Part shown: piece after piece, positions 1-16,973 of the stretch
Layout: every line of letters begins with the position of its first letter
Numbering within the stretch: the stretch's first letter is position 1
From: Nocardioides nitrophenolicus
GTDB taxonomy: Bacteria; Actinomycetota; Actinomycetes; Propionibacteriales; Nocardioidaceae
DNA length: 64,000 bases
Assembly (NCBI RefSeq): GCF_016907515.1
Contig: NZ_JAFBBY010000001.1
Location: forward strand, 5,270,001-5,334,000
Reading direction: 5' to 3'
Notes under the pieces: model-generated
The model's input: the letters and a program-made list of their open reading frames with translations, nothing else
Told to the model about the DNA's origin: nothing
Database searches by the model: none
Program-made: the position numbers and the translations under genes

Positions 1-629
1 CGGAGACCCTCTTCGGGCGCTGGCCGCACACCGGCACCGTGCGGGTCGACGGCCGCCAGGTCGCGCTGAGCTCACCGCGGACGGCGATCGACGCCGGCAT
101 CGCGCTCGTGCCCGAGGACCGCAAGCGGGCAGGCCTGGTGCTGTCGATGTCGGTCCAGGAGAACCTGGCGATGGCGTCCCTGGCCCGGCGGGGCAGGTGG
201 GGGATCCGGCGCCCGGCGCCGGAGCGGGCCCACACGTCGCGGGTCGCGCGTGAGCTGTCCATCAAGGCGGCGAGCCCGGACGTGGCCGCGGGGACGCTCA
301 GCGGCGGCAACCAGCAGAAGATCGCCATCGGCAAGTGGCTTCTCAACGACCCGCGGGTGCTGGTGCTCGACGAGCCGACGCGAGGCGTCGACGTCGGGGC
401 CAAGGCCGAGATCTACGCCCTCGTCGAGGAGCTCGCCCGCCGCGGGCTGGCCGTCGTGGTCGTGTCCTCCGAGCTCCTGGAGGTGCTCCGGCTGGCCCAC
501 CGCGTCGTCGTGATGGCCAAGGGCCGCGTCGTCGGCGAGGAGCCCGGCGCGGTGGCAACGGAGGAGTCGATCACCCGGCTGGCGTTCACCGCACCGGAAC
601 CCGAACACCACAGGAAGGCAGCACGATGA
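1..629 (+). CDS. Sugar-type ABC transporter ATP-binding protein (C-terminal part)
   Basis: This is the 3' end of a gene that begins before the window; the frame is open from base 3. It supplies energy to an importer at the cytoplasmic face. The roughly 208 visible residues are the second ATPase domain of a tandem RbsA/MglA-type protein, a family usually about 500 residues long. The domain carries VPEDRKRAGL, which is typical of this second domain. It also has the signature TLSGGNQQK and the Walker B/D-loop VLVLDEPTRGVDVG. The stop overlaps the ATG of the permease (ATGA), so the two are translationally coupled. The substrate cannot be read from the sequence; the family imports ribose, galactose and other sugars or small polyols. 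A periplasmic binding protein is expected upstream, outside the window. Confidence 0.93.
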   Translation, partial: ETLFGRWPHTGTVRVDGRQVALSSPRTAIDAGIALVPEDRKRAGLVLSMSVQENLAMASLARRGRWGIRRPAPERAHTSRVARELSIKAASPDVAAGTLSGGNQQKIAIGKWLLNDPRVLVLDEPTRGVDVGAKAEIYALVEELARRGLAVVVVSSELLEVLRLAHRVVVMAKGRVVGEEPGAVATEESITRLAFTAPEPEHHRKAAR

Positions 630-1669
630 GCTCGAGCGAGGACACCACGGTGCGGACGGACGTCGAGCCGCCCGCCGCCGAACGGCCGGCCACCGGCGCG
701 GGCTGGCGACGCCATCTCACCGGGAGCAGCGCACCGGCGTACGCCGTCGCGGGTCTGCTCGTGGTCGTGGTGGTGGTCGAGCTCCTGACCGAGCCGAACT
801 TCTCCTCGTCCTCCAACCTCACCAACCTGCTGCGCACCGGCGCGGTGCCGATGCTGCTGTGTGTCGGGATGACGATGGTCATCCTCACCGGCGGGATCGA
901 CCTGTCGATGGGCGCGATCCTCAGCGTCTGCGGGATCGCCTACGCCAAGCTGGTGATGGGCGGCCTGGCTCCCGAGCCGGCTCTCCTGCTCACCGTGCTG
1001 CTGGGAGCCGCGATCGGCTTCCTCGTCAACGGACTGCTGATCGGGAGGGTGGGGCTCTCGTTCTTCGTGGTCACCCTGGCGAGCGCCTCGCTGCTGAGCG
1101 GGTTCGCGCTGCTCTGGTCGGGCAACCGCCAGTACGACCTGTCCTGGGACGGCCTCGCCCGGACCCTCGGCAACGACGCGCTCGGCGGGGTGCTGCCGTA
1201 CGGCGCCATGATCGCCGTACTGGTCGTCGTCGTCGCCGGCGTGGTGCTGACCTACACGGTGTTCGGCCGCTCCGTGTACGCGATCGGTGGGAACCCGGAG
1301 GCCGCGCAGCTCTCCGGCATCCGGTCGCAGTGGGTGGTTCCGGCCGTGTACGGCGTCAGCGGCGCCTGCGCCGGCCTCGCCGGCGTGATGATGATCGGCC
1401 GCCAGACGATCGCCGACCCGACGGCCGGCAACAACACGATCGTGCTCTACGTCGTGGCGGCGACCTTGCTGGCCGGCGTCTCGATCACCGGGGGCAGCGG
1501 GTCCGTCTTCGCCGCGCTGGTCGGGACCGCCTTCCTCCAGGTGCTCGCGAACGCGCTCGCCCTCCGCGGGTTCAACAACTCCTGGCAGATGGTCGTCACC
1601 GGCGCGATCCTGCTCGTGGCCGTCTACCTCGACCGCGTACGGCAACGCCTCCTGGCCCGCAGGGCCTGA
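626..1669 (+). CDS. Sugar-type ABC transporter permease (RbsC family)
   Basis: This is a 347-residue integral membrane permease that partners the ATPase just upstream. The polar N-terminus (about 45 residues) is followed by a long hydrophobic segment rich in Val. Next comes the family hallmark region around MTMVILTGGIDLSMG, then several more membrane helices. TGGSGSVFAALVGTAFLQ near the C-terminus is typical of BPD_transp_2 permeases. The ATG at 626 overlaps the preceding stop and follows AGGAAGG, which decides the start. The gene should form the channel dimer with the tandem ATPase. Co-transcription with the downstream hydrolase and two oxidoreductases suggests that the imported compound is their substrate; that link is inferred. 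Confidence 0.93.
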   Translation: MSSSEDTTVRTDVEPPAAERPATGAGWRRHLTGSSAPAYAVAGLLVVVVVVELLTEPNFSSSSNLTNLLRTGAVPMLLCVGMTMVILTGGIDLSMGAILSVCGIAYAKLVMGGLAPEPALLLTVLLGAAIGFLVNGLLIGRVGLSFFVVTLASASLLSGFALLWSGNRQYDLSWDGLARTLGNDALGGVLPYGAMIAVLVVVVAGVVLTYTVFGRSVYAIGGNPEAAQLSGIRSQWVVPAVYGVSGACAGLAGVMMIGRQTIADPTAGNNTIVLYVVAATLLAGVSITGGSGSVFAALVGTAFLQVLANALALRGFNNSWQMVVTGAILLVAVYLDRVRQRLLARRA

Positions 1670-1701
1670 CCCCGACTCCCACGATGAGAAAGGCAGAATC
1701 C

Positions 1702-2772
1702 GTGAGCTCCACCGAGACGCCCGACGACGGCGTCGCCGAGATGACGGCAGCGACCCGCTCCCGCGCGGTCGCGGCGGGCATCGACGTCCACGAGTACGAC
1801 GCCGTGACCGGCGCGCTGACCTCGCTCGACCGCTGGAGCGACAGCTTCCGCGACGTCGCGGCAGGCTATGTGCGCACCGCCGTCGCGGCCCGCGAGCAGG
1901 GTCTGGCCGTCACCAGCGGCGAGGCCTTCCTGACCGCGTCGGCCTGGTACTACTTCGCCGGGTCGTGGCCGAGCCCCCGCACCAGCACCTACCAGGAGGC
2001 GGCGCAGGCGCAGGCCGCAGCGCTCGCCGTCCTCGACCCGGGGGCCGAGCGGGTCGAGGGTGACCGCTTCCGTGGCGTGCTCCGTCGCCCGGCGACGGAG
2101 TCCGCCGCCCTGGTGGTGCTCGTCCCCGGTCTCGACGGGGCGAAGGAGGAGCTGTGGTCGTTGGCCGAGGCGCTCCTGGCCCGCGGCTGTGCGACCCTCG
2201 TGCTGGACGGACCGGGCCAGGGTGAGCTGGTCGGCGTCCAGGCGCCGACGACCGACTACCCGGCGGTCGTCCGGGAGGCGCTGGACGCGGTGCTCCCGCG
2301 CTTCCCGGACGAGGGGCGCGAGGTCCGCGCCGGCATCCTCGCCTGCAGCCTCGGCGGGCTGTACGCGACCGCGACCCTCGCCGCGGAGCCGCGGCTGCGG
2401 GCCGGCGTAGTCGTCAGCGGCCTGGTGAAGGTCCCTCCCTACGCCGACCTTCCGCCCCTGATCCAGGGGCTCCTGACGGTGCGCACCGGCGACGAGGAGG
2501 GCGCCCGCCGCTTCACCGGGTCCCTCGACGTCACCGACGCCGCGCTCGCGATCGACGTACCGCTCCTGGTCGTCGACGGCGACGCCGACCCCCTCGTCCA
2601 CGGCGACTTCACCGGCCGCTGGCTCGCCGAGCACGTCACGGGTGCGGAGCGCCGCGTCGTGGCCGGCGGTGACCACAACATCGCCAACGCCCGGGGGCGC
2701 TGGCTCCCGGGCGCGGCAGACTGGCTCGCGCAGCAGCTCGGCGCCCCCGTCGTCCGTGCCGTCCCGGCCTGA
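1702..2772 (+). CDS. Alpha/beta hydrolase, 2,6-dihydroxypseudooxynicotine hydrolase-like
   Basis: This is a 356-residue serine hydrolase of the alpha/beta fold with a long helical N-terminal region (about residues 1-120). That build resembles the FrsA and 2,6-dihydroxypseudooxynicotine hydrolase group, which cleaves C-C or ester bonds. The nucleophile elbow is ACSLGG with Ser216, a variant of GxSxG whose first Gly is Ala. Asp296 in GDADPLV and His325 in GGDHN complete a plausible triad. GTG at 1702 is preferred over ATG at 1684 because GAGAAAGG lies 8 bases before it. The gene sits between an importer and two oxidoreductases, so it probably acts on the imported compound. The exact substrate is unknown. 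Confidence 0.8.
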   Translation: MSSTETPDDGVAEMTAATRSRAVAAGIDVHEYDAVTGALTSLDRWSDSFRDVAAGYVRTAVAAREQGLAVTSGEAFLTASAWYYFAGSWPSPRTSTYQEAAQAQAAALAVLDPGAERVEGDRFRGVLRRPATESAALVVLVPGLDGAKEELWSLAEALLARGCATLVLDGPGQGELVGVQAPTTDYPAVVREALDAVLPRFPDEGREVRAGILACSLGGLYATATLAAEPRLRAGVVVSGLVKVPPYADLPPLIQGLLTVRTGDEEGARRFTGSLDVTDAALAIDVPLLVVDGDADPLVHGDFTGRWLAEHVTGAERRVVAGGDHNIANARGRWLPGAADWLAQQLGAPVVRAVPA

Positions 2773-2803
2773 CCCCTACCAGCATCCGACACAGGAGGAA
2801 ACG

Positions 2804-3673
2804 ATGAGCAGCTCGTTCGAAGGGAAGGTCGCCTTCATCACCGGCGGGGCGCGTGGGCAGGGGCGCGAGGCCGCCCTCGAGTTCGCGCGCCGCGGCGCGG
2901 ACGTCGTCGTGGTCGACATCGCGGCCGACATCGCCAGCGTGCCGTACCCGCTCGCGTCGAAGGAGGACCTGGAGGAGACCCGGGCCCTGGTCGAGGAGGA
3001 GGGGCGCGCGTGCCTGGCGCTCGTCGCGGACGTCCGGGACCAGTCCGCCCTCGACGAGGCGGTGGCCGCGACGGTCGACCGGTTCGGTCGCATCGACGCC
3101 CTGCTCGTCAACGCGGGCATCTACGACTGGTCCGACAAGCCGTTGTGGGAGACCCCCGACGCGGCCTGGGCCGACCAGATCGGCGTCTGCCTCGAGGGAG
3201 CCTGGCGCACCGCCAAGGCGGTGGCGCCGGTGATGGTCGAGCAGCAGAGCGGCGCCATCGTCTTCACCTCCTCGAACGTCGGCGTCGAGGGCGCGCCCTG
3301 CAGCGCGCCGTACGTCGCCGCGAAGCACGGGGTGATCGGGCTGATGCGGGTGGCCGCGCTGGAGCTCGGCAACCACAACGTGCGCGTCAACGCGCTGCTG
3401 CCCTCGACCACGGACACGCTGATCAACGACCACCCGGCCGGGTGGCGGCGCGCCAGCGGCAAGCCCGACGGGACCCGCGAGGACTACCTCGACGCGGTCC
3501 ACCAGTGGACGGCGATGCGCAACGTCGGCGCCCTGCCCGCCCGGGCCGCCGCCCTCGCCGCCATCTGGCTCTGCTCCGAGGAGGCCGCGTTCGTGCACGG
3601 GATCCAGCTGCCCGTCGACGCCGGGCACCTCGTGCTCCCCGGCATGAACCCGTGGCCGGTGCGCGATGCCTGA
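2804..3673 (+). CDS. Mycofactocin-coupled SDR family oxidoreductase
   Basis: This is a 289-residue classical short-chain dehydrogenase. The Rossmann motif is TGGARGQG (residues 13-20), the catalytic Tyr170 and Lys174 lie in YVAAK, and Ser156 or Ser157 is the third catalytic residue. After the second beta strand comes the insertion DIASVPYPLAS, which leads into EDLEETRALVE. This insertion is the mark of the mycofactocin-coupled SDR subfamily (carveol dehydrogenase type). Members hold NAD(H) tightly and pass electrons to the peptide-derived cofactor mycofactocin. The start is fixed by AGGAGG shortly before ATG 2804. It probably oxidises an alcohol produced or imported by the neighbouring genes. 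No mycofactocin biosynthesis gene is in the window. Confidence 0.85.
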   Translation: MSSSFEGKVAFITGGARGQGREAALEFARRGADVVVVDIAADIASVPYPLASKEDLEETRALVEEEGRACLALVADVRDQSALDEAVAATVDRFGRIDALLVNAGIYDWSDKPLWETPDAAWADQIGVCLEGAWRTAKAVAPVMVEQQSGAIVFTSSNVGVEGAPCSAPYVAAKHGVIGLMRVAALELGNHNVRVNALLPSTTDTLINDHPAGWRRASGKPDGTREDYLDAVHQWTAMRNVGALPARAAALAAIWLCSEEAAFVHGIQLPVDAGHLVLPGMNPWPVRDA

Positions 3674-4610
3674 GCCGACCATGCGCGCGCTGGTCCGCGA
3701 CGCCACCACGGAGACCGGGGTGCGCCTCGCGTCCGGCGTACCGATCCCGGTGCCGCAGCCGGGGGAGGCGCTGGTGCGCACGACCGCGATCGGGCTGAAC
3801 TTCGGCGAGGTGAACGCCGGCGTCTTCGACCTCCCCGACGGCACGGTGCCGGGCTGGGACTCGGCCGGGATCGTCGTACGTGCGGCCGCCGACGGCTCCG
3901 GGCCGCCGGAAGGCGCCCTGGTCGTGACGCACGGCGGCCTCGGCGGCTGGGCCGAGCTCCGCGCCGTACCGACCGCGTGGCTCGGGACGGCCCCTGCGGG
4001 CGCCGACCCGGTCGCCCTCGCGACCCTCCCCGTCGCCGCCACGACCGCGCTGCGGGCGCTCCAGCTCACCGGGACCCTCGGCAAGCGGATCCTGGTCACC
4101 GGCGCCAGCGGCGGGGTGGGCCGGTTCGCCGTACAGCTGGCGCGTCGCGGGGGAGCGCACGTCGTCGCTTCGACCACCAGTCCGAGCGAGCTCGGACCGC
4201 GGCTGCGCGAGCTCGGCGCCGCCGAGGTGGTGAGCCACCCGCGCGAGGCCGAGGGCCGTTTCGACGGCGTCCTCGACCTGGTCGCCGGCGACCAGCTCGT
4301 CGCGGGCTACCTCGCGCTGCGGCCCGGCGGCGTGCTGGTGGCGATCGGGCACGCCACCGTGGCCGAGACCGTCTTCCCGATCGGCGCCTTCCACGCCCAC
4401 GGCGGCCTCCACGACCGCCGGCTGGTGACCTTCCACCTGCACGGCGGACTCCCGGTGGGTGACGACCTCACGCTGCTGGCGTCGGAGGTCGCCGAGGGCC
4501 GGCTGGACGCCGAGGTCACCTGGCGCGGGCCGTGGGAGGACCACGCGACCCCGTTCGGTCTGCTGCGTCAGCGGGGCCTGCGCGGCAAGGCCGTGCTCGA
4601 GGTCGCATGA
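3666..4610 (+). CDS. Zinc-free MDR oxidoreductase (quinone oxidoreductase-like)
   Basis: This is a 314-residue medium-chain dehydrogenase/reductase. The N-terminal GroES-like part contains PGEALVRTTAIGLNFGEVN. The nucleotide-binding part has VTGASGGVGRFAVQLA around residue 145, the usual NADPH site of quinone oxidoreductase-type members. The cysteine cluster for structural zinc and the catalytic zinc ligands of alcohol dehydrogenases are absent. It is also shorter than zinc-dependent ADHs (about 350 residues). The ATG at 3666 overlaps the end of the SDR gene by 8 bases; a second ATG at 3681 is possible. It probably reduces an enone, quinone or similar intermediate of the same pathway; the substrate is unknown. 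Confidence 0.82.
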   Translation: MPEPTMRALVRDATTETGVRLASGVPIPVPQPGEALVRTTAIGLNFGEVNAGVFDLPDGTVPGWDSAGIVVRAAADGSGPPEGALVVTHGGLGGWAELRAVPTAWLGTAPAGADPVALATLPVAATTALRALQLTGTLGKRILVTGASGGVGRFAVQLARRGGAHVVASTTSPSELGPRLRELGAAEVVSHPREAEGRFDGVLDLVAGDQLVAGYLALRPGGVLVAIGHATVAETVFPIGAFHAHGGLHDRRLVTFHLHGGLPVGDDLTLLASEVAEGRLDAEVTWRGPWEDHATPFGLLRQRGLRGKAVLEVA

Positions 4611-5329
4611 GCGAGCTGAGCCCGGACCCGACCGCCCTCGCCGAGCGCTCCCGGCTGTGGGCGATGCTCGCGCTCACCTTCACCACCGGCATGGTCGACG
4701 CGATCGGCTATCTCGGCCTCGACCGGGTCTTCACCGGCAACATGACCGGCAACGTGGTCATCCTCGGCATGGCCATCACGGGCGCCGGCGACCTGCCGAT
4801 CGCGGGCCCACTCCTCGCGCTGGCCGGCTTCATGGCGGGCGCCGCCATCGGTGGCCGCGCGCTGCGCCGCGCCGAGCCCGGCTGGACCCGCCTGACGACC
4901 CTGCTGTTCGCCGCGGTGGGATCGATCGTGCTGGCCCTGGGGATCACGACGGCGGTCGTCGGCACCGACCGCGAGCCGGTCGCCCTCGCCGTCACCACCG
5001 CGCTCGGCGCGGCCATGGGCCTGCAGGCCGCGACCGCTCGCTTCCTCGCGGTCAAGGACGTGACGACGGTCGTCGTCACCTCGACCCTCACCGGTCTTGC
5101 CGCTGACTCCCGGCTGGGCTTGGGCACCGGCTCCGGCTCCGGCCGCCGCCTTCTTGCGGTCGTGGCCATCGGGGTGGGTGCTCTCGCGGGGGCACTGCTG
5201 CTGCGGGCGGGGCTCGGGTGGTCGCTCATGGTCGTTGCGGGAATCATCCTGGTGACGACCGTGCTCGGTGCGATGTTCCAAACCGGGCGGCTCTCGTCGT
5301 CAGCTGCTCCACGGCCCGCTCGGGTCTGA
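4607..5329 (+). CDS. DUF1275 (YoaK) family membrane protein
   Basis: This is a 240-residue integral membrane protein that starts at an ATGA overlap with the preceding gene. It has about six hydrophobic segments and the family-typical opening TTGMVDAIGYLGLDRVFTGN, followed by MTGNVVILG. LGAAMGLQAATARFLAVKDV and VTSTLTGLA are also conserved in DUF1275. The biochemical role of the family is not established. It is the last gene of the left-hand operon and the last one before the accessory island. Confidence 0.88.
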   Translation: MSELSPDPTALAERSRLWAMLALTFTTGMVDAIGYLGLDRVFTGNMTGNVVILGMAITGAGDLPIAGPLLALAGFMAGAAIGGRALRRAEPGWTRLTTLLFAAVGSIVLALGITTAVVGTDREPVALAVTTALGAAMGLQAATARFLAVKDVTTVVVTSTLTGLAADSRLGLGTGSGSGRRLLAVVAIGVGALAGALLLRAGLGWSLMVVAGIILVTTVLGAMFQTGRLSSSAAPRPARV

Positions 5330-5388
5330 GCCGGTGTGTTCGCCCGGCTGGCGGACGGCTTCGCGTAAGCGAACGTTGTGTCCTGTCA

Positions 5389-5574
5389 TTGCGCGCCGTC
5401 TCCGAGGCTGTGGAGCGGCTCGGGGTCTCGACGCGGCAGGTCCAGCAGTTGGTAGTGTGCGGCGAGCTGCGTTCCCTGGCCGGGGGACTGGTCGACGAGA
5501 TTTCGATCGAGCGGCTGCTGGCCGTCTGCCGTGGTTCGCACGCGGTCTCCCGACGGGCCTGGCGATCACGTTAG
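5389..5574 (+). CDS. Truncated helix-turn-helix protein (possible gene remnant)
   Basis: This is a short reading frame of 61 residues starting at a TTG with no clear ribosome binding site. AVSEAVERLGVSTRQVQQL followed by GELRSLAGGLVDEISIERLLAV resembles the helix-turn-helix/wing of excisionase-like DNA-binding domains. Such domains form the N-terminus of longer actinobacterial proteins. The frame stops at 5574, just after an Arg/Ser-rich stretch, where longer relatives would continue. It is therefore probably a decayed gene at the left edge of the island. A short intact DNA-binding protein is the alternative. Assignment is tentative. Confidence 0.35.
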   Translation: MRAVSEAVERLGVSTRQVQQLVVCGELRSLAGGLVDEISIERLLAVCRGSHAVSRRAWRSR

Positions 5575-5704
5575 TCGGACGTCGTCGTCGCGGTCGCCCG
5601 CATTCGGGGCGGTTAGACGCAAGCCGACGACCGGTCGCTCAGCGGCATGGTCAGACCCTCCGCCCCGACAGCCGCATCGTCGAGCCCTGGTGGCTCCGCT
5701 CCCA

Positions 5705-6046
5705 CTAAGACCGGCGGTTCTTCGTGCGGGTGTTCTCGTGTCCCTGGGGTCGCGTCGTGTCGTCGGGGTGCGCACGCGCCCAAGACCGCTTGCTGGTGAC
5801 CATGTGACGGACCTTGTCGTCGGGGTCTTGACGGAGGATCTCAAGCACGTTCAGAGGCACGGTCTTGTTCTGGGCGACCCAGAATCGCATGTCCGGGAAT
5901 CGCTCGATCACCTCGCGCCAAGTGCTCTCGCTCGCTTCGTCGTGAGCAGCCCGGTTGTACTCCGCTGGGTCATCGCTGATCCGCAGACGCACGAACTCCT
6001 CTGCCGATTCGATCACTCGGGCATGGTGCCACGACCCATCGCACAT
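5705..6046 (-). CDS. Small protein with leucine-rich-repeat-variant-like helices, unknown function
   Basis: This is a 113-residue protein if started at the ATG at 6046, or 103 residues from the GTG at 6016. Neither start has a convincing ribosome binding site. The core is predicted helical. The units WREVIERFPDMRFWVAQNK and LEILRQDPDDKVRHMVTSK repeat a short helix-helix pattern like the LRV/HEAT-type repeats of small conserved actinobacterial proteins. The N-terminal EEFVRLRISDDPAEYNRAA is strongly polar. There is no signal peptide or membrane segment, so it should be cytoplasmic. It lies alone on the minus strand inside the accessory island. I do not recognise a specific function. Confidence 0.55.
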   Translation of the reverse strand: MCDGSWHHARVIESAEEFVRLRISDDPAEYNRAAHDEASESTWREVIERFPDMRFWVAQNKTVPLNVLEILRQDPDDKVRHMVTSKRSWARAHPDDTTRPQGHENTRTKNRRS

Positions 6047-6313
6047 TGGTAGGACCGAGCGGATCGCGACAGATCCGGGCGAATGTCTGCTTGGTACGGG
6101 CACCTGCGAAGCAGGGGTGAGCATCCGTCAGTACTGGCTAAGCCACTACCGCTCACACGGTCATGGTGGCGCATTCAGTCGATTTCAGAACACCCGTGCG
6201 CTGGCCGGGGGCGACCGCTTTGGCAGATGAGTGCGTCCGGGTCGCGGCGGTTTGACGCATGCGAAGGCGGCGGCGCACGGGACGCCTGTCGCGCCACAAG
6301 AAGGGCTGGGACC

Positions 6314-6649
6314 GTGGAACTGACTCGGGCTCATTACGACCTTCTCCGCCCCATCAAGTCACTTCAAGAGGACGACACTGAGCGGTTCCCGTCGACCCGG
6401 GAAATGGGCACGAGACTCTTGCAGATCTACAAGGCTAGGGATGGCGGGTACTCGTGGCAAAGCAGCCCGCCATGGCATGGAACTTCGCCGATGGCCGACG
6501 AGCTACGCCGGGAGGGATTGATCGAGGTCGACGTCGGCATGGCCACGTTCCACCGCCCAAACCAGCCGACTCCGTCCGTCGATCAGTACTGGATTGGCAC
6601 CACCGAGGAGGGCAAGACCGCGCTAACCAAGGCTGAGCCAACTGGATAG
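6314..6649 (+). CDS. Hypothetical protein in the accessory island
   Basis: This is a 111-residue reading frame starting at GTG 6314, preceded 8 bases upstream by AAGAAGGG, a good ribosome binding site. ELTRAHYDLLRPIKSLQ, FPSTREMGTRLLQIYKA and SPMADELRREGLIEVD resemble a small winged-helix-like fold. In that reading the last of these is the recognition helix and the TEEGKTALTKA tail is also typical of wHTH proteins. It could be a transcription regulator of the island, but this is only a fold guess. I recognise no named family. Confidence 0.5.
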   Translation: MELTRAHYDLLRPIKSLQEDDTERFPSTREMGTRLLQIYKARDGGYSWQSSPPWHGTSPMADELRREGLIEVDVGMATFHRPNQPTPSVDQYWIGTTEEGKTALTKAEPTG

Positions 6650-6770
6650 TCATGATCGTGCCTGCGACCCGAAGGCGGTGATCGCGGCGGAATGAGGCAC
6701 GTCAGTCTTGAAGGACGAATATCCGCCTACTTCGTTCGGCGAAGAGGGCGAGTAGGTGGTTGCTCGCCCG

Positions 6771-7312
6771 TTACGGGTTTCGCAGATCTTTCGCGAGCGC
6801 TGCGGACAATGACCGCCCATCCAATCGATCGACCGAACCTTCGGTTAGAGATCGCAACTCCTCCCGGATCAGCTTTTCCATCGCTTCGGTGCGACCAGAC
6901 ATGTCGGCCAAAGCGCGGGCGTCCCTCGCGCCGCCCACCGGTCCCTCCCACCAATCCAGCAACCAATCGGTGAAGACGTCATAGGCGGCACGAACTTCAT
7001 CGCTGGCCCAGAGAGCGACTCTCGCTTCGAGGCGAAACTGCTCGTCTGGCGTGAACGGTGTCGTCGACGTTCCGAGTTTGTCGGGTGTGTAGCTGGCGAA
7101 CCAGTCTCGCTCGTGCCGCATGTGCACCAGAAGGTCTATGTATACCTGCTTGCGTTCGTTCGCCAGCCCGTCTGCGATGGCTGCAAATCGTTGATGTCGC
7201 CAGAGCAGACGCTTATGACGCCGGTCCCCCCCCGCTTATTCAAGGCGGGCACGATAACGCCCAAGAGAGCCACCGAGCCGGTGACGATGATGGCGATCTG
7301 TTCCGTGCTCAT
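6771..7312 (-). pseudogene. Small membrane-anchored protein gene interrupted by a frameshift at a C8 tract
   Basis: Two consecutive minus-strand frames join into one gene. The first starts at ATG 7312 and encodes MSTEQIAIIVTGSVALLGV followed by IVPALN, a single N-terminal membrane helix. The second frame, ending at 6771, encodes a charged, helical domain with MRHERDWFASYTPDKLG and WWEGPVGGARDARALADMSG. The break falls at a run of eight C at 7226-7233 (eight G on the coding strand). One extra G, or two fewer, would give an uninterrupted 180-residue protein reading through ANERKQVYIDLLVHMRHER. The join could reflect a real inactivating or phase-variable slip, or a sequencing error. The function is unknown; the shape is a cytoplasmic domain anchored by one helix. 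Confidence 0.6.
7226..7233. repeat. Homopolymer of eight C (slippage site)
   Basis: This run of eight C lies exactly where the two reading frames of the interrupted membrane-protein gene (6771-7312) must be joined. Such runs are prone to polymerase slippage and to sequencing miscounts. Confidence 0.85.
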
Positions 7313-7691
7313 ACCCACGTGCGAATGCTGTCACGGTGGTCAGCCTTTTCGCGCATTTTTCTGATGCCGACACGGCACAGAGTGATACGGAACGTCCAGG
7401 ACACCGTCGCTTGCGGAGAGCCTGCGCGGTTCAAGGCGGCCGGAGAGATCCCTGCGTCCGGTCGCAACGTAAGACGCCCCCGGAGCGCACTTGGAGCGGT
7501 AGGTCCGGATGCACGCCGTCCGACTGCGGGATGAGGAGTTCTCGAGCACCGGAGGCCGTCGCCTCGGTCTCCCAATCTCGTAGGCGTTGACGTTGGAGTC
7601 ATGGTCCCAGCCAGGGTGCATGAAGCTGGTAGGGCTCCTGCGAGTGGGGCAACTCTCTACGGACAAGCCCTGCGCCGCGCCGTCACATCCG
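7313..7691. other. Gene-free stretch upstream of the STAND operon
   Basis: I find no convincing gene here. Several short frames overlap in opposite directions, but they have no ribosome binding sites and none resembles a protein family. The region ends at a candidate promoter for the STAND gene. Confidence 0.5.
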
Positions 7692-7721
7692 TTCACCATT
7701 GTCCGCGCCGCCGAATATGCT
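7692..7721 (+). promoter_or_regulatory. Candidate promoter of the STAND NTPase operon
   Basis: TTCACC (7692-7697) and TATGCT (7716-7721) are separated by 18 bases and each matches four of six positions of the vegetative sigma consensus. They lie about 105 bases before the ATG at 7826. This is the best promoter-like pair in the gap, but it is based on sequence alone. Confidence 0.35.
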
Positions 7722-7825
7722 CCTTGCACGGAGGAGTCGCTGGCCTCGGGCTGGCTCAAGCAAGACGGGGTGGTGACGCCAACTGTGCGATGCGTCCTCT
7801 GCTGTCGACCACGCTGCAGGCGAAA

Positions 7826-10800
7826 ATGACTTCGCTGACAGATGTCCGTCCGAGTAGGGACGGCGACCAGTTCCACTACACATGGGCAGCGCGCCAGTCG
7901 CTACGTCTGCTGGACACCACCGCCGGATTGACCGCGCTCTACGTGGAAGCGGTCGATCCAAGCGAGCACCGATCGCGGGCTGAGGCGGATCCGGGCAACA
8001 ACGTCGCTCGACTCGCGGCCGATGACTCCTCGCCACTCACAGGTGACGAGGTGATCGACCTCGCCGAGTACTGGGGTTCCAGCGACATCGACGACGCTGA
8101 TCTCGTCGTCTACCGCCAGTTCAAGCACTCCACCACACGGCCGGACGAGGCCTGGACCTTCTCGTACCTGACCAAGACTCTCGTCGGCTTCGCGAAGAAG
8201 TACCGCTCCCACCGCGACAACCATCCAGAGGCCTTAGGCCGGATCAGGTTTGAGTTCATCACCAACCGTCCGATCAGTGACTCAGCCCTAAAGACACTCG
8301 ACGACCTCAAGAAGGGCAAGCCATCCACCGCCGCCGACTCGGTCCGACGCAGGCTGGCCGACATCCTCGACGCCGACGACATCGTTGACCTCGCCAACGC
8401 GCTAGACGTCGATCTTCGGGCCCCCGCGCTACTGAAGTTGCGTCAGCTCTTGGAGACCCAAGTCGCCGGGCTGCTCCCCGGCGCGCCAGGGGATCAAGCA
8501 TTACTGCTGAGAGAGATGATCTCAAGCCGCGCGACGTCCGTCTCGGGCAACCAACCCGCGGTCTACCGCGAGGACGTTTTGGCTGCGCTAAAGACGTCAG
8601 ATGACCAACTGCTGCCTGCCCCGAACCTCATCCAAACTCCCACCACCCCCCTCACGAGAGGCCAGTTCACCGAGATCGCCGACGCGGTATGCGCGGCACA
8701 GGGAATGCCTGTCGTGATCCACGGCCCAGGCGGAGTGGGCAAGAGCGTGCTGTCCATGGCGCTCCTAGAACTTGGTCCGCCCCGCAGCGAAGCCCTCGTT
8801 TACGACTGCTTCGGAAACGGCTCGTACAGGCGCCCCAGCAGCGCACGCCATCAGGCCAAGCAAGGTCTAGTGCAACTGTCGAACGAGCTCTCCGCGCGAT
8901 CCCTATGCGACCCGCTCGTCCCATCAGCGACAGCAGACGACACGGACTACGCGCGCGCCTTCCTAGGACGCCTCGAGAACGCCGCCGCAACCATCGGGGC
9001 CACATCACCAGACGCCCTACTCACCATCGTGATCGATGCGGCCGACAACGCCGCCATGATGGCTGCCGACGCAGGGGACCGCCCGTTCGTTGCAGGACTG
9101 CTGCGCGAAGAACTCCCGCCCAACGTAAGGCTGGTCGTCACGTGCCGCACCGAAAGACGCAACCGACTTGACCTACCGCCACATCACCTGGACATTCGAC
9201 TCGAGGGGTTCGACCTAGCTGAGACCCGCGCACATGTTGAGCAAGCCTTTCCAAGCGTGTCCGCAGCAGACGCCGCCGAGTTCCACGCCCGCACCAGCCG
9301 CAACCCGCGAGTCCAAGCCACCGTGCTCGAGGCGACCAGCACCATCGAAGAAGCGCTTGACTGGCTAGCCCCCAATCCTGTTTCTCCCGCCGCTGCCCTC
9401 GACTCCATCATCGAACGCCAGATAGCCGAGGTGCGCGACAGCCACCACAGCAGCGCCGCCGAGATCGACCAAATTTGTATCGGTCTGGCAGCACTCCGAC
9501 CGATGATCCCCGTCCGCGTCCTCGCGGAGCTGTCAGGCATCGAGGAATCGCTCGTCCTCAGCTTCGTCACAGACCTTGGCCGGCCTCTGCTGATCGATAG
9601 CGGGACGGTCCAGTTCCGCGACGAACCCACCGAGACCTGGTTCCGCGACCACTACCGACCCGCGGGCACAAGCCTGGACGAGTTTTTGCTGCGCCTCACA
9701 CCGCTCGCTGACAGCGACGCCTACGTTGCCGCATCACTCCCCGCGCTGCTCTTCGAGGCGAACCGGTTCGACGATCTGGTCCAACTCGCACTCTCGGACG
9801 AGGGGCTGCCCGACAACACACTTCCGCCGCACCAACGCAACGAGCTGCAGCGGCGGGAGATCTCGCAGCAGAGGACGCAGTTCGCGCTGAGCGCCGCTCT
9901 GCGTGGAGACCACGACTTCGCCGCGACCCGGCTCGCGTTGCGTCTCGGCGAGCTCACGGCGGGCAGGACCAGGCGACTCAAACTCATCAGAGACAACACC
10001 GACCTGGCTGCCCGGTTCCTGGATGCCCACGTGCTGGAGCAACTCGTGGCCACGCGCGCTGTCACGGGCAAGTGGCCGAGCTCGAACCTGCTGTACGAAG
10101 GCGCCCTCCTGGCTGGCGCGCCCGGTCAATCCGAGCAAGCCAGGAATCGACTCCGAAGCGCCGTGACCTGGGTCCGAGCCTGGACCCAGCAAGCGGCCAG
10201 AGATGACGAGCGCTCGAACGTCAGCGACAAGGACGTCATGCAGATCGCATGGGGTCTGCTCAACACTGACGGCCCCGATGCATGCGTCGACTACCTGCTT
10301 CGCTGGACCCCAAGAACACTCGCGTTCGATGTCGGCGTGCTCGTGGCCCGACGTCTGGCCGATGCAGGGCGGGTGGCCGACCTCGAGTCGCTGGCTCTGA
10401 GCACACGCGGGAAGTACGCGAAGTTCGCCGTCGCCCAGGTATGCGCCGAGCGGGATCTCCCCATGACGCCCGAGGTCGTCACGCACCTTCTGAAGCCGGC
10501 GTTGAAGAGATCCAAGCCAGTTCGGCCGAGCCGACGAGCCGGCGAGTCATGGGCCTCGCCCATGAACGAACTGGTCCACGAAGGACTGACCGCCATCGTT
10601 TGGCTGATCACCCGCGCCCTCGCCACCAGTTCGATCTCGACAGACGACGCCCACCGCGTCCTGAATGTTTATCTGCCCGCAGACATGGGGCGCAGAACAG
10701 GCGAGTGGCACCACCGCGACCTGTGGGTACCGCTTCTCGGGTTCGCACTGCGAGCAAGGCTCGAAGGGCGCGAACTCACCGCCACGGAGATCGAAGGCCC

Positions 10801-13800
10801 AGACATCACCAGGGCGCGCGAGCGTAAGCACTTTGAGTCGTCCAGGTCGTTGCGGGCCTATGAAGCCAACGTGGAACCGCTAGTGGGGTGGGCGAACCTA
10901 TGGACTGCGCTGCAGTTCGATCCGAGCCCGGCGCTGCTCTCTGAGTTCTCCGACAAGGCGAGAGCGTTCTTGAGCCGCGAGGGCACGCGCCGGCACAACG
11001 ACGAAGAGACCGACCAGGTCCAGCTGAACATCACCGCTTCGGTCATCCTCAGCGTGCTGGTAGAACACCCTGCAACCCTCACTAGCACCGACATCACCGC
11101 GTTCTGTGAACGTAATCGAGACAGCCTGTGGCGCTCGACGATGATCCAACTCGTCCAGCGAGCATCGGCCTCCGACGACCTGGGCGAGGTGACAGCCGAG
11201 CTTGCTCGGCAGGTGCACGCTGACTTGCTGGTGGCCCGGGAGGATGCACACGAGAAGGCGAAGGGCCTGGTCCTGCTCGCGCGAGCGACGTACCAGGCAT
11301 CACCACACGAGGCCGAGATTCACTTCCAAGCAGGGCTCGACATCGCAAACGCGATCGGGGACGACGCATGGTCACGGTTCGATGCGTTCGTCGAAATTGC
11401 CCTACTCGCCGGCGAGACGAGTGACGACGAACCCGGTCGTGCCTACCGGATGGGGCAGATCTCGGAAGGCCTAGAGGAGTACCTCGGCGACTCCCTCGAC
11501 TTTGCACGCGTCGCTCGGGTCGCGGCTGGGCTGAGCGTCCCCGAAGCACTCGCCCTGGTCTCACGCTGGAGAGACCGGCGCGTCGCACCGGTCGCCCGCC
11601 TCGCCGAACCATTCTGCACCAAACCAGTGGGGTTACTCGCAGAGGACCCGGCCCTAGCCCTCGCCTTGTTGCCGTTCTGCGACCGTCACCCCGCGATCGA
11701 CACTCTCGCCGAGGTTCTCGCGTCGTCAACACTCCCGGCGACGCCAGTCATCGTGGCCCTGCTGCGGCTGTGGCGGACCGAGCCTCCCAAGAGAGACGCG
11801 CTAGACCGTGCGCTCGATGTACTCGGCATCCCTAAGCGCACAATCGAAGCCATCGACCCCACGCTCCTGATGCATCGCGAGGCGGCGGCCGAGACGACTG
11901 AGGTCGCGGTTACCGACGCGCGTCCCGCACCCACGAGCTACACGGACATCGACTTCACTTCGGTCGAGGGCTGGGTCATTGCACTGGACCGAGCGCAGAG
12001 ACGTCCCGACCGCGATGCTCTCTTCGACCATGTGGCATCGGTAGGATTCAGCGCGCCGATCCTTGAGGCGTTCGGCAACTGCCCAACCGTCGACGTGTGG
12101 CATCTCGCGGTGATCCTCGAGAGGCTGGAGACGGCCTCCCTCTCGATGGGCGCGCAGAGCGCCCTGGACGTCGCACTGACAACGTTGCTTGGGCGGCTCG
12201 GCTCGGCCTACCTTCTGGTGTCCTATCGGTCCCTCGACGTCGCACGGCTGCGATCGCTCACAGGACGGGAGACTGACTACGGACGTGTTGCCAGCCGGGC
12301 CGTGGCCGACCAGCCAGCGTACGAGCCCGAGGAGGCGTTCACACTCGCTGCCAAGCTGGCCACACGCCTCACGCCTGCGGATCGCCTCAGTATCTTCGAC
12401 GCAGCAGCCAGCCTCTTCACTAACACTGCACCCCCAAACTCCTTCGACGGTCCCCATCCGGCCGGCATGACGGCGAACTGCGACAACGTCACAGCAGTTG
12501 CCTGCCTGATCTGGACCGCGCTTGGTGACCCCGCACCGGCGACACGGTGGCTAGCAGCCCATGCAGTCCATCTCCTGTTGTCGATCGAGGCGCCGCACCT
12601 TGCCGAGCGGATGTGCGAGGTGGCGATGGGCAGCGTCGACCCAACTGTGTTCAGAGACGCTCGGCTGCCGTTCTACGACAAGCACGCGACTCAGTGGCTT
12701 CTCCTTGCTCTTTCGCGCGCCTCGCTCGAGGCGAGATCGCTACCCCAGGTCGCGAAGTTCGCGCCGTTGTTGCGGCAGGTGCTGGAAGGTCCTCGACACG
12801 CCGTAACGAGCCCACTCACTCGCGACATAGTCCTTCGCCTCCAACGCGCAGACCTCACCCCTGAGGGATTGAACTGGCCCCCAGCCGTCGAATCCATCGG
12901 TCGACCACTAGGAGTGGTCCGCCGACCCTGGGGGCGCGGGGACGTCGTCAGGTCATTCAGCGAACTGAACGCGCTAGTCCGACGCGAGGCCTGGAACCCT
13001 GCGCTCGATACGGACACCGATGACTGGGATGCGGACGACGTCCTCGATGAGGACCTCAACGACGATTTCGGCCCCGGCGAGGACGCAGACGACGATGACG
13101 ACGAGACATTCAGGTTCTTCTTCGACTTCCGGTCATATTGGTGCGACCGACTAGCGAGGGCGTTCGGAGTGACCGACACCTCGATCGAGAAACTCGTAAA
13201 CGAGGTGCTCATCGACCGGTGGAAGGTCGAGTGCCGAGGTCGAGTAGAGGACGATCCCCGGCACGAGCTGCGGCTGTACCCACGACACTCGTACTCACAG
13301 AAGTCCGAGTGGCCACAAGAAGAGGATCTAGACTTCTACCTGGCCGTCCATGGGTTGTACGAGGTCGCAGGCAGCCTGCTCCAACTTCTTCCGGTAGGCC
13401 AAACCTACGACGAGGACGAGGAGACAGGCGAGTCGGAGTACTCGCGGTTCCTCTCGCATCACGTCCCAACGCGCGCCGACGGAAGATGGCTGTCCGATCG
13501 TGCGGACGCGGTGCCCTTACAGGCACAGGTCCCTGGTAGATCAGGGGCCGTAGGGGGAGTCCGCGCCGACGAGACCACATGGCCGTTCGAGATCAACGCC
13601 ACGATCTTCCGAGATGAACTGCAGCCTGAGCCGGATCTTCTGTCAGTCTCTGCATACCGGTCGGTCCAGCACTACAGCCGCAATGAAACGATCCACGTGA
13701 GCAGCGCTCTGGTTGCGCCAATCAGCGCACGATCTCTTCTGCGCGCGATGCAGACTGCGCCCGACACCCGGGCCTTCCGCCTCCCTGATGCGTCGAACCG

Positions 13801-14275
13801 TGAGTTCACATCCGAGGTCGTCGGGTTTGAGCTCACCGGCTGGATCGAGGAGCACGGGTACGCCGAAGGTCTGGACTGCAAGGACCCGCTCGCAAGCGGG
13901 ATGCACTACCCACCGCAGCGCCCATCGACAGCTCTGCCAGCACTCGCCAAGCTCAGCCCAGACGCAGACATGCGTATCTGGCGAGATGGCGAGCAGATTG
14001 TCTTCATCTCCAGGATCTGGGACGACTCCGACGCCGGAACGAGCTCCCACGGCAGTTTCGGCCACCAGTTGCTCGTCGACCGGCCGAGCCTCTCCGCGCT
14101 GCTCCGGCGGCTGGACCGATGGCTCATCGTCGAGGTGCAGATCAGGCGGTACGTCGACTCTAGCGAGTACCGCACCTCCGGCGTCGGTAGGAACGACGAC
14201 GAGCGGCTGCCTTATTTGGAGCCTTACACGAAGTACTTCTTGGTTGACCTCGCAGGAGACATTCATGACCAGTGA
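7826..14275 (+). CDS. Giant DUF4297-nuclease/STAND NTPase, AVAST (Avs3-like) defence protein
   Basis: This is a 2149-residue protein. Residues 1 to about 240 look like the DUF4297/Cap4 double-stranded DNA nuclease. They include DGDQFHYTWAARQSLRLLD, acidic Glu41 and Asp92, and a QFKH motif with Gln98 and Lys100 typical of PD-(D/E)xK enzymes. A STAND/NACHT ATPase follows, with Walker A GPGGVGKS at residues 300-307, Walker B TIVIDAADNA with Asp404, and VVTCRTERR as a sensor-like motif. From about 600 to 1720 the protein is a long run of helical repeats, the expected ligand sensor. It is followed by a very acidic linker (about 1728-1759) and a compact C-terminal domain. In known Avs proteins the sensor binds a phage protein such as terminase or portal, and the nuclease is then switched on. 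The ATG at 7826 has a weak ribosome site; an in-frame ATG at 7790 is less likely. Family assignment is from motifs, and the phage target is unknown. Confidence 0.85.
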   Translation: MTSLTDVRPSRDGDQFHYTWAARQSLRLLDTTAGLTALYVEAVDPSEHRSRAEADPGNNVARLAADDSSPLTGDEVIDLAEYWGSSDIDDADLVVYRQFKHSTTRPDEAWTFSYLTKTLVGFAKKYRSHRDNHPEALGRIRFEFITNRPISDSALKTLDDLKKGKPSTAADSVRRRLADILDADDIVDLANALDVDLRAPALLKLRQLLETQVAGLLPGAPGDQALLLREMISSRATSVSGNQPAVYREDVLAALKTSDDQLLPAPNLIQTPTTPLTRGQFTEIADAVCAAQGMPVVIHGPGGVGKSVLSMALLELGPPRSEALVYDCFGNGSYRRPSSARHQAKQGLVQLSNELSARSLCDPLVPSATADDTDYARAFLGRLENAAATIGATSPDALLTIVIDAADNAAMMAADAGDRPFVAGLLREELPPNVRLVVTCRTERRNRLDLPPHHLDIRLEGFDLAETRAHVEQAFPSVSAADAAEFHARTSRNPRVQATVLEATSTIEEALDWLAPNPVSPAAALDSIIERQIAEVRDSHHSSAAEIDQICIGLAALRPMIPVRVLAELSGIEESLVLSFVTDLGRPLLIDSGTVQFRDEPTETWFRDHYRPAGTSLDEFLLRLTPLADSDAYVAASLPALLFEANRFDDLVQLALSDEGLPDNTLPPHQRNELQRREISQQRTQFALSAALRGDHDFAATRLALRLGELTAGRTRRLKLIRDNTDLAARFLDAHVLEQLVATRAVTGKWPSSNLLYEGALLAGAPGQSEQARNRLRSAVTWVRAWTQQAARDDERSNVSDKDVMQIAWGLLNTDGPDACVDYLLRWTPRTLAFDVGVLVARRLADAGRVADLESLALSTRGKYAKFAVAQVCAERDLPMTPEVVTHLLKPALKRSKPVRPSRRAGESWASPMNELVHEGLTAIVWLITRALATSSISTDDAHRVLNVYLPADMGRRTGEWHHRDLWVPLLGFALRARLEGRELTATEIEGPDITRARERKHFESSRSLRAYEANVEPLVGWANLWTALQFDPSPALLSEFSDKARAFLSREGTRRHNDEETDQVQLNITASVILSVLVEHPATLTSTDITAFCERNRDSLWRSTMIQLVQRASASDDLGEVTAELARQVHADLLVAREDAHEKAKGLVLLARATYQASPHEAEIHFQAGLDIANAIGDDAWSRFDAFVEIALLAGETSDDEPGRAYRMGQISEGLEEYLGDSLDFARVARVAAGLSVPEALALVSRWRDRRVAPVARLAEPFCTKPVGLLAEDPALALALLPFCDRHPAIDTLAEVLASSTLPATPVIVALLRLWRTEPPKRDALDRALDVLGIPKRTIEAIDPTLLMHREAAAETTEVAVTDARPAPTSYTDIDFTSVEGWVIALDRAQRRPDRDALFDHVASVGFSAPILEAFGNCPTVDVWHLAVILERLETASLSMGAQSALDVALTTLLGRLGSAYLLVSYRSLDVARLRSLTGRETDYGRVASRAVADQPAYEPEEAFTLAAKLATRLTPADRLSIFDAAASLFTNTAPPNSFDGPHPAGMTANCDNVTAVACLIWTALGDPAPATRWLAAHAVHLLLSIEAPHLAERMCEVAMGSVDPTVFRDARLPFYDKHATQWLLLALSRASLEARSLPQVAKFAPLLRQVLEGPRHAVTSPLTRDIVLRLQRADLTPEGLNWPPAVESIGRPLGVVRRPWGRGDVVRSFSELNALVRREAWNPALDTDTDDWDADDVLDEDLNDDFGPGEDADDDDDETFRFFFDFRSYWCDRLARAFGVTDTSIEKLVNEVLIDRWKVECRGRVEDDPRHELRLYPRHSYSQKSEWPQEEDLDFYLAVHGLYEVAGSLLQLLPVGQTYDEDEETGESEYSRFLSHHVPTRADGRWLSDRADAVPLQAQVPGRSGAVGGVRADETTWPFEINATIFRDELQPEPDLLSVSAYRSVQHYSRNETIHVSSALVAPISARSLLRAMQTAPDTRAFRLPDASNREFTSEVVGFELTGWIEEHGYAEGLDCKDPLASGMHYPPQRPSTALPALAKLSPDADMRIWRDGEQIVFISRIWDDSDAGTSSHGSFGHQLLVDRPSLSALLRRLDRWLIVEVQIRRYVDSSEYRTSGVGRNDDERLPYLEPYTKYFLVDLAGDIHDQ

Positions 14276-15053
14276 GAGCGACCCTGTCATCGAACTCGGC
14301 AAGAGCCTTGCCGACGCCCTCGACGCCAGCGACATCGTCGGACGATGGATGGCTCACCATCTCGCAGACCTCATCACCCGGTCCGAGGCACAGCCCGCCG
14401 ATCAGGAGCTCGCGAGGGAGACGCGCGAGGTCATTTTGAAGCTGTGGGAACACAAGGCTGGCGGCCGATTCACGACAACGCCGTTCGGGTACGTGCAACC
14501 GGTCCTCGCCGCTCTCGCACGGCTCGAGCCAGATCCACCACCCTGGGCCCACTTCCGGACACTCTCCGCCGAGGAACTGCCGCCGGCCAACCGCCTGGCG
14601 CAGTATCCCATTCTCGAGACGGCATGCGACATGGACCGAGAGTTCGGGCAGTTGGTGCGGCTGGCCGTCGCACTAGCCGCTCAGGCCGCTCTGGAGCGTG
14701 AGGAGCCTTGGGTGGTTGCGGCCACGGCAGTGGGCGGCACCGAGGTCGACGACGTGCTGCAACAACTTCAAAGTAGGATCCGCGCCTATCGCCTCGAGAC
14801 AGCGCTGTATCAACACCCCGGTTCCGCGGACGAGCCGTTCGATCCAGATGATAGTGACCTGCCGGAGTCCGCTCAGCCAACCCAGGTAGACGGAGACCAG
14901 CATTCAAGCTCAGCTGATGAGGTCGTCGCCATAGCCCTCAACGCGGCGATTGCTCGGTGCAGGGATCTTCTCGGGCGTCTTGATCACTTAGTCGCTGGGC
15001 CCAAACCCGCAGGTGCACCAACGACATCAGAGGCAACTGAGTCCGCCGAGTAG
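14265..15053 (+). CDS. Unknown partner protein co-encoded with the STAND NTPase
   Basis: This is a 262-residue soluble protein with no signal peptide or membrane segment. Its ATG lies inside the STAND gene's end (11-base overlap) behind AGGAGA, so the two are surely one operon and probably made together. The N-terminal two-thirds are helical, with DALDASDIVGRWMAHHLADL, ETREVILKLWEHKAGG and LEREEPWVVAATAVGG. A disordered acidic segment (about 195-220) and a final helix AIALNAAIARCRDLLGRL follow. I recognise no catalytic motif. Type III AVAST systems are also described with a small second gene (avs3B). Whether this protein is its counterpart cannot be decided here. It may modulate the NTPase, or protect the cell from it. 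Confidence 0.75.
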   Translation: MTSESDPVIELGKSLADALDASDIVGRWMAHHLADLITRSEAQPADQELARETREVILKLWEHKAGGRFTTTPFGYVQPVLAALARLEPDPPPWAHFRTLSAEELPPANRLAQYPILETACDMDREFGQLVRLAVALAAQAALEREEPWVVAATAVGGTEVDDVLQQLQSRIRAYRLETALYQHPGSADEPFDPDDSDLPESAQPTQVDGDQHSSSADEVVAIALNAAIARCRDLLGRLDHLVAGPKPAGAPTTSEATESAE

Positions 15054-15370
15054 TCGTACTGCATTGTCAAGTTCGCGGTCTCTCGCCCGAGATCGTTCGC
15101 AATGACAACCGCTTGTCTGGCACACCCATCGACGCCCAGGTCCGCCTGAGGGTCGGCCATTGTCTCGGAGTCGATGGGAATGTCTGAGTCGCGTTCCATG
15201 ACGGCCAACGCAGAGGAAAGCGCCGCGGGCCGCGCCGACAACGTTGGTTAGTCGCTGAGCCGGCACCGGACCGCCGGTCCGCGCGATAAGGCGCTCCCGC
15301 GACATTCTGGGCGGAATGATGCTCGCCGGAGTTGGCACACCTCCGCCCGCGCGAGCCGCTCTCGAAGCGA
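15054..15370. other. Gene-free right flank of the island
   Basis: No convincing gene is visible between the STAND partner gene and the glnA terminator. A small perfect hairpin, CGGACC-GCC-GGTCCG at 15267-15281, has no following T-run and cannot be called a terminator with confidence. I found no tRNA fragment and no direct repeat matching the left edge of the island. Confidence 0.5.
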
Positions 15371-15399
15371 CGATGGCCCCGGGGAACCCGGGGCCATCG
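15371..15399 (-). terminator. Terminator of glnA
   Basis: A perfect 13-base-pair inverted repeat (CGATGGCCCCGGG and its complement) has a 3-base loop GAA. It starts 36 bases past the glnA stop on the minus strand. There is no T-run, as is common for actinobacterial terminators. It also insulates glnA from the island. Confidence 0.8.
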
Positions 15400-15435
15400 C
15401 GCAGACGAGCCAGCAGAACCAGCTCAGGTCACGAC

Positions 15436-16857
15436 TCAGATGTCGTAGTACAGCTCGAACTCGTGCGGGTGCGGCCGCAGCTGCACCGGAGCGATCTCGT
15501 TCTCCCGCTTGAACGACGTCCACGTCTCGATCAGGTCGGGCGTGAACACATTGCCGACCGTGAGGAAGTCGTGGTCGGCCTCGAGCGCGTCGAGCACGGC
15601 GCCGAGGGAGGTGGGGACCTGGGCGATCTCGGCCATCTCGTCCGGCGGGAGCTCGTAGATGTCCTTGTCGATCGGTGCGGCCGGCTCGGTCTTGTTCTGG
15701 ATGCCGTCGAGGCCGGCGAGCATGAGGGCCGAGAAGGCGAGGTACGGGTTCGCCGACGGGTCGGGGAACCGGGTCTCGATGCGCTTGGCCTTGGGGTTGC
15801 TGCCGGTGATCGGGATCCGGACCGAGGCGGAGCGGTTGCGCGAGGAGTAGACCAGCGAGATCGGGGCCTCGTAGCCGGGGACCAGGCGGTGGTAGGAGTT
15901 CACCGTCGGGTTGGTGAACGCGAGCAGCGCCGGGGCGTGGGCGAGGATGCCGCCGATGTACCAGCGGGCCATGTCGGAGAGGCCGCCGTACCCGGTCTCG
16001 TCGTAGAACAGCGGCGAGCCGTCCTTCCACAGCGACTGGTGCACGTGCATGCCGGAGCCGTTGTCGCCGAAGATCGGCTTCGGCATGAAGGTGACCGACT
16101 TGCCCTGCTCCCAGGCGGTGTTCTTGATGAGGTACTTGAACTTCATCACGTCGTCCGCGGCCTTGAGCAGCGTGTCGAAGCGGTAGTTGATCTCGGCCTG
16201 GCCGGCGGTGCCGACCTCGTGGTGGGCTCGCTCGACCTGGAGGCCGCAGGCCTCGAGGTTCTTGACCATGTCGGCGCGCAGGTCGCTGTAGTGGTCGTAC
16301 GGCTCGACGGGGAAGTAGCCGCCCTTGAGGCGGGTCTTGTAGCCCTTGTTCTCGCCGTCGTCCTTGCCGGAGTTCCACCAGCCCTCGACGGAGTCGATGT
16401 GGTAGTAGCCCTCGTTGACGCCCGTCGAGTAGCGCACGTTGTCGAAGATGTAGAACTCCGCCTCGGGCGCGAAGAACGCGGTGTCGGCGATGCCGGTCGA
16501 GGAGAGGTAGGCGAGCGCCTTCTTGGCGATGTTGCGCGGGTCGCGCGAGTACGCCTCACCGGTGATCGGGTCGTGGATGAAGAAGTTGACGTTGAGCGTC
16601 TTCGCCTTGCGGAAGGGGTCGATGTACGCCGTGGTCGGGTCGGGGAAGAGCGACATGTCCGACTCGTTGATCGCCTGGAAGCCGCGGATCGAGGAGCCGT
16701 CGAAGCCCAGGCCGTCGTCGAAGACGGACTGGTCGAAGGACGAGGCCGGCACGGTGAAGTGCTGCATCACACCGGGCAGGTCGCAGAAGCGGACGTCGAT
16801 CATCTCGACGCCCTCGTCCTTGATGTACTTGAGCAGCTCTTCGCTGTTGTTGAACAT
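15436..16857 (-). CDS. glnA: Type I glutamine synthetase
   Basis: This 473-residue enzyme makes glutamine from glutamate, ammonia and ATP in the cytoplasm and normally forms dodecamers. [28 protein letters not shown] (the catalytic loop region), [21 protein letters not shown] and [13 protein letters not shown] are the usual active-site segments. Tyr401 in DIYELPP is the adenylylation site, so this is a beta-subtype enzyme regulated by GlnE. ATG 16857 follows GAGGAGG and is chosen over upstream in-frame codons. Transcription is very likely controlled by GlnR through the operator at 16974-17011. In M. tuberculosis, glnA1 is next to RDD, DUF4191, lipA and lipB genes, as it is here apart from the inserted GSIII gene. 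Confidence 0.97.
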
Positions 16858-16973
16858 TCGGTCCTCCTCGGCTGTGGCTCCGCGGCCCAGCCATCGGTTC
16901 AGCCTGTGGCGATCGGGGCGCTCCGGCACGGCGACGGGCCGGAAACCCTCCCCGGCAACCTACCGAATGACCT

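Follow-up and report, generated by a model that had tools for sequence, protein, structure and literature searches.

A predicted AVAST type 3 (Avs3) operon, probably acquired by horizontal transfer, in the actinobacterium Nocardioides nitrophenolicus

The Avs3 protein of Salmonella enterica (SeAvs3) is a nuclease-STAND-sensor protein which recognises the large terminase. Binding of the phage protein by the SeAvs3 sensor leads to tetramerisation, which pairs the nuclease domains and makes DNA cleavage active, as described in passages of two reports (PMC11291478, PMC12198126). In a passage of a third report, Avs1 to Avs4 are described as recognising the large terminase, the portal protein or Ksap1 (PMC12931631). 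The nucleases of the DUF4297-HerA and CBASS Cap4 systems have a PD-(D/E)xK fold that is related to that of SeAvs3, according to a section of PMC11291478. The partners of these two nucleases differ from those found in the operon described here. We know of no STAND sensor in either the DUF4297-HerA or the CBASS Cap4 system.

The window analysed here is a stretch of 64,000 nucleotides from Nocardioides nitrophenolicus, which lies at 5.27-5.33 Mb on a single contig of 5.8 Mb. As pointed out in an earlier note prepared from the DNA letters, the window contains a gene for a 2149-residue protein and a second gene coupled to it. Their open reading frames, at 7826-14275 and 14265-15053 on the forward strand, overlap by 11 nt. 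The reading frame of the first gene, avs3a, is intact across all 2149 codons. The mechanical open reading frame begins at 7601, a start that was ruled out since the seven relatives compared all align from the residue encoded at 7826 onward, and the start of avs3a was placed at 7826 for this reason.

The earlier note had proposed that the first protein belongs to type III AVAST and had suggested a search with the PADLOC Avs profiles; profile matches in PADLOC and NCBIfam, together with the SeAvs3 sequence, confirm this identity. The first protein was matched by the PADLOC Avs3a profile PDLC02167 (1342 bits, E=0) in two stretches, the best of which covers residues 5-1637, and the profile was matched over most of its length, as would be expected for AVAST type 3. 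The second protein, which the note had left unrecognised, was matched by the PADLOC Avs3b profile PDLC02168 (90 bits, E 5.6e-26). No other PADLOC family matched either protein at E<=10, the profiles of AVAST types 1, 2, 4 and 5 included. The best NCBIfam match of the first protein was Avs3a (NF041816, 1459 bits, under the curated equivalog cut-off of 2800), and that of the second protein was Avs3b (NF041817, 81.5 bits, 8e-23, below the cut-off of 200). Since these scores lie under the equivalog cut-offs, strict functional equivalence to Avs3 is not certified. Avs3a aligned with SeAvs3 (PDB 8dgc; E 3.7e-259) over residues 7-1643 and 1756-2147; this was the sole PDB sequence found with Avs3a as the query, and two later pieces of Avs3a, queried separately, also retrieved it. 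Judged by its sequence, the pair is a genuine AVAST type 3 (Avs3) operon, a kind already described, in an actinobacterium. Searches for sigma-70 promoters and terminators of the operon gave no consensus and no excess over shuffles.

The plasmid-borne Avs3a of Klebsiella variicola, which matches SeAvs3 over residues 1-2092 with 4396 bits, was used as a stand-in for SeAvs3 in closer comparisons. The SeAvs3 and K. variicola systems are like that of the window in the nuclease-STAND-sensor order, the active-site residues, the length of the protein and an overlapping downstream avs3b. The Avs3a proteins of the window and of K. variicola are about 29-31% identical, however, the linker that precedes the C-terminal domain is longer and acidic in the window protein compared with the SeAvs3/K. 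variicola type, and the Avs3b proteins are just 26% identical in alignment. Of the earlier description of the operon as highly diverged or a new branch, the divergence holds relative to the enterobacterial type, given the 29% identity to K. variicola Avs3a and the scores below the NCBIfam cut-offs, but the branch is populated and its novelty was overstated, as close relatives of Avs3a that reach 98% identity are found among the matches listed. Also among these matches, the Avs3a proteins of Kocuria carniphila, Janibacter indicus and Brevibacterium permense are 71-85% identical to that of the window and are annotated just as hypothetical or ATP-binding proteins. Through this operon, an NLR-like immune receptor of bacteria whose structure is understood reaches an actinobacterial clade in which many relatives are unlabelled.

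A Cap4/DUF4297-like PD-(D/E)xK nuclease is predicted at the N-terminus of Avs3a, at residues 1-230 (7826-8515, forward strand), with an approximate boundary taken from the alignment to 8dgc. Conservation was followed in an alignment of 117 rows, which comprise the query, 112 of 120 listed homologues (the eight shorter than 1950 residues being left out) and four sequences from the loci. Of the nuclease residues, E41 is conserved in 115 of the 117 rows and Q98 and K100 each in 116, and the motif Q98-x-K100-H-S is present in the window protein where the earlier note had placed its QFKH motif. Assignment of the N-terminus to the Cap4/DUF4297-like nucleases, also made in that note, rests on homology to SeAvs3, with E41, Q98 and K100 intact, but it finds no counterpart in Pfam, where neither DUF4297 nor Cap4 matches the window's Avs3a, even when its own N-terminus is scanned. 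Of eight Avs3a N-termini scanned, one was weakly matched by Pfam Cap4_nuclease (E 0.0063).

Pfam sees just the ATPase of Avs3a (AAA_16 at 7.6e-7 and NACHT at 9.5e-5, both below gathering scores), which is predicted to be a STAND/NACHT-type NTPase at residues ~291-600 (8696-9625, forward strand). The Walker A motif GPGGVGKS occupies residues 300-307, with K306 encoded at nt 8741-8743, and the Walker B residue D404 (nt 9035-9037) lies within IDAADNA; both motifs are located as originally noted, and K306 and D404 are present in 117 of 117 rows. Homology to SeAvs3 and conservation by region place a predicted helical (TPR-like) sensor solenoid at residues ~601-1680 (9626-12865, forward strand), and a predicted helical sensor of more than 1100 residues fits the alignment to SeAvs3. 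A variable linker of low identity follows at residues ~1681-1755 (12866-13090, forward strand), which is acidic in the window protein. The conserved C-terminal domain at residues 1756-2149 (13091-14272, forward strand) aligns with residues 1699-2079 of 8dgc (E 2.7e-42). Residues 1715-1766 differ among relatives in length and in sequence or composition. The acidic linker was considered as a special DNA-mimic domain and rejected, as an acidic fraction of at least 0.35 occurs in just five of the 117 rows and residues 1715-1766 are variable.

There are 138 near-invariant columns in the Avs3a alignment, 133 of which are identical in K. variicola Avs3a. These columns number 15 in residues 1-230, five in 231-290, 46 in 291-600, 27 in 601-990, seven in 991-1270, none in 1271-1500, 12 in 1501-1680, none in 1681-1755 and 26 in 1756-2149. 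This distribution indicates that the effector, the ATPase and the C-terminal domain are conserved, with variation in the sensor middle and in the linker; residues 1271-1500 are the most variable part of the predicted sensor.

The second gene, avs3b (14265-15053, forward strand), encodes a protein of 262 amino acids and is identified by the PADLOC and NCBIfam matches given above as well as its conserved pairing with avs3a. In all 11 complete loci that were inspected, which range from Klebsiella to Nocardioides and comprise the window, six of the genome contigs, two plasmids and two further genomes (most plasmid matches, the G236 fragment and an Acidobacteria contig that ends inside avs3a fall outside this count), avs3b is directly behind avs3a and overlaps it by 11 to 125 nt, lengths that depend on some avs3b start codons chosen by the analyst or by annotators. 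The Janibacter and Brevibacterium loci have the same 11-nt overlap as the window in different hosts. The adjoining and overlapping position of avs3b in every one of these loci suggests that it is an obligate partner of avs3a. Distances between Avs3a proteins correlate with those between Avs3b proteins (r 0.958, 55 pairs, Mantel p 0.0001), which demonstrates co-inheritance but not contact.

Among 29 aligned Avs3b sequences, 15 columns are invariant, including W61, P73, R86 and W149, and W61, P73 and W149 are still invariant in an alignment of 33 that includes the Klebsiella sequence. Values of dN/dS are 0.19 for Avs3a and 0.45 for Avs3b versus the Janibacter copies, and 0.15 and 0.23, respectively, versus the Brevibacterium copies, for which synonymous sites are partly saturated; avs3a is under purifying selection. 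No strongly hydrophobic stretch was found in Avs3b, and PDB sequences matched it just at E 0.65-0.67. Pfam returned scattered, weak, single-member matches to the 29 Avs3b sequences, the best of which was coiled-coil Cep57_CLD in two of the 29 (E 2.1e-4). Tentatively, Avs3b would most likely be a non-enzymatic helical partner that modulates the assembly or stability of Avs3a. Words beginning with "Avs3b" do not occur in the full text of the open-licence papers searched, a scope outside which most subscription papers fall. An avs3b paired with its avs3a offers a tractable route to the role of this second gene in AVAST type 3 systems.

Within the genus, full-length avs3a is found in two of 59 genomes, the query genome itself and G057, whose Avs3a matches in three pieces of one open reading frame with 32-35% identity; a match in G002 is marginal and spans 109 residues. 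Across the phylum, three of 396 genomes (own included) match at E<=1e-30, one of them through a partial gene, and none of the 14 control genomes matched, so that these controls give no measure of sensitivity. Relatives occur in 18 of 72,556 plasmid records, including the annotated avs3a/avs3b pairs of K. variicola and Janthinobacterium. There were no matches among 50,697 phage records, and none was confirmed in viral contigs, which were searched for close relatives only. In a quick tree of 27 rows, built without Brevibacterium, in which the rows for Klebsiella and for G111 were marked as long branches and two forks were left open, the query clusters with the copy P0003 and with the proteins of Kocuria carniphila, Janibacter indicus and Friedmanniella luteola, and the copies of Nocardioides xinjiangensis and G057 are placed elsewhere. 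The avs3a/avs3b pair was probably acquired horizontally, because the kin of the protein include those of Kocuria, Janibacter and Friedmanniella whereas two further copies from Nocardioides branch apart from it, and because, among the matches listed, identity is 85% to the Kocuria protein versus 48% to that of another Nocardioides.

The operon is in a variable stretch of lower GC (5334-15362) between a DUF1275 gene on the left and glnA, which encodes a type III glutamine synthetase (15436-16929, reverse strand), on the right. The best named match of this synthetase, at 95%, is in Nocardioides sp. LML1-1-1.1, and Nocardioides accounts for most of the named matches among the 120 listed, in keeping with the genus. 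GC content is 62-66% at 6-15 kb versus 64-79% in the rest of the window, where it is mostly near 70%. The right flank from glnA onward is common to six congeners, with similarity resuming at 15363-15438. Positions 1-5333 are collinear with one congener, G014, at 90% identity, and this similarity ends just past the DUF1275 gene. In G014 the left-flank DNA is on a different contig from glnA, and the DNA that continues the left flank there sits 1.17 Mb off in the N. nitrophenolicus genome, at 4.107 Mb. The left border at window position 5333 is a rearrangement point, and a simple insertion is not claimed for this reason. An island between housekeeping genes, as the operon was initially portrayed, therefore holds for the variable stretch and its glnA flank in six congeners but not for the left border. 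A clean empty site was not found in the congeners compared, and the DNA beside glnA in G014 had no match in the N. nitrophenolicus genome in a search run without a positive control. The neighbouring DUF1275 gene occurs in just 19 of the 59 genus genomes at E<=1e-20, and no convincing attachment repeats flank the operon. Between the left border and avs3a, positions 5334-7825 form 2.5 kb of lower-GC, single-copy DNA with small open reading frames only, and PADLOC matched none of the seven at 5.5-7.6 kb in a search for further defence genes.

By analogy with SeAvs3, the C-terminal half of Avs3a would bind a conserved phage protein during infection, which by homology would be the large subunit of the terminase. 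Tetramerisation of Avs3a, driven by the STAND ATPase, would then pair the N-terminal nuclease domains, and the paired domains would cut double-stranded DNA and thereby abort the infection. Terminase as the trigger, oligomerisation, DNA cleavage and cell death are all inferred for the window's Avs3a from the Salmonella protein. The SeAvs3-like mechanism is the best reading given the homology and the intact residues, and we assign a probability of about 0.88 to an Avs3 antiphage operon, probably horizontally acquired, for which terminase-triggered tetramerisation and DNA cleavage would be the most likely mechanism. It is possible that avs3a instead encodes a STAND ATPase that has decayed or been domesticated and has a regulatory role in the lineage, outside defence, and its presence as a single copy in its own genome would fit such a role. 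We consider this highly improbable in view of the 2149 open codons, the intact active-site residues and the purifying selection, together with a patchy distribution (a single further full-length homologue in the 59 genus genomes, own included) and the variable locus.

Identity to K. variicola Avs3a drops to 12.6% in residues 1271-1500 and to 2.7% in residues 1681-1755, and with the middle of the sensor so dissimilar the ligand of the window protein could differ. Portal or Ksap1 is recognised by other Avs types, according to a passage of PMC12931631, and the actinobacterial branch, with family and effector unchanged, might likewise sense portal or another phage protein and not the large terminase. 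Set against this, K. variicola Avs3a keeps 26 of 26 near-invariant positions of the C-terminal domain and 12 of 12 in residues 1501-1680, which suggests a shared feature of the ligand; we regard a change of ligand as unlikely. A broader proposal couples two claims, namely that Avs3b, an obligate partner inherited with Avs3a all the way from Klebsiella to Nocardioides, is a regulator or co-sensor needed by actinobacterial Avs3 and that the sensor middle of this branch (residues 1271-1500) has been retuned for actinophage proteins; we put it forward as a conjecture that is less likely than not.

Sequence past the 3' end of glnA was compared over ~10 kb in seven genomes, namely the window and six congeners (L045-L050, the flank of G056 being just 8.9 kb), and nothing was common at E<=1e-10 save two short pieces in G034 and G014. 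The glnA 3' flank looks like a variable spot able to hold defence genes. PADLOC gave three strong matches (Orf5, PbeA and PbeC) and one weak match (MzaA, E 4.9e-4) among 10 chosen open reading frames from four of the six congener flanks, all four matches being in G020, and nothing for the other six. The Orf5/GmrSD-like, PbeA and PbeC genes of G020 are located at L049:2786-4711 (reverse strand), 7246-9381 (forward) and 9574-11631 (forward), respectively. In a Pfam scan of 10 chosen open reading frames, one, in G034, was identified as a phage integrase gene (L045:3908-5215, forward strand), which lies ~0.8 kb from the end of glnA.
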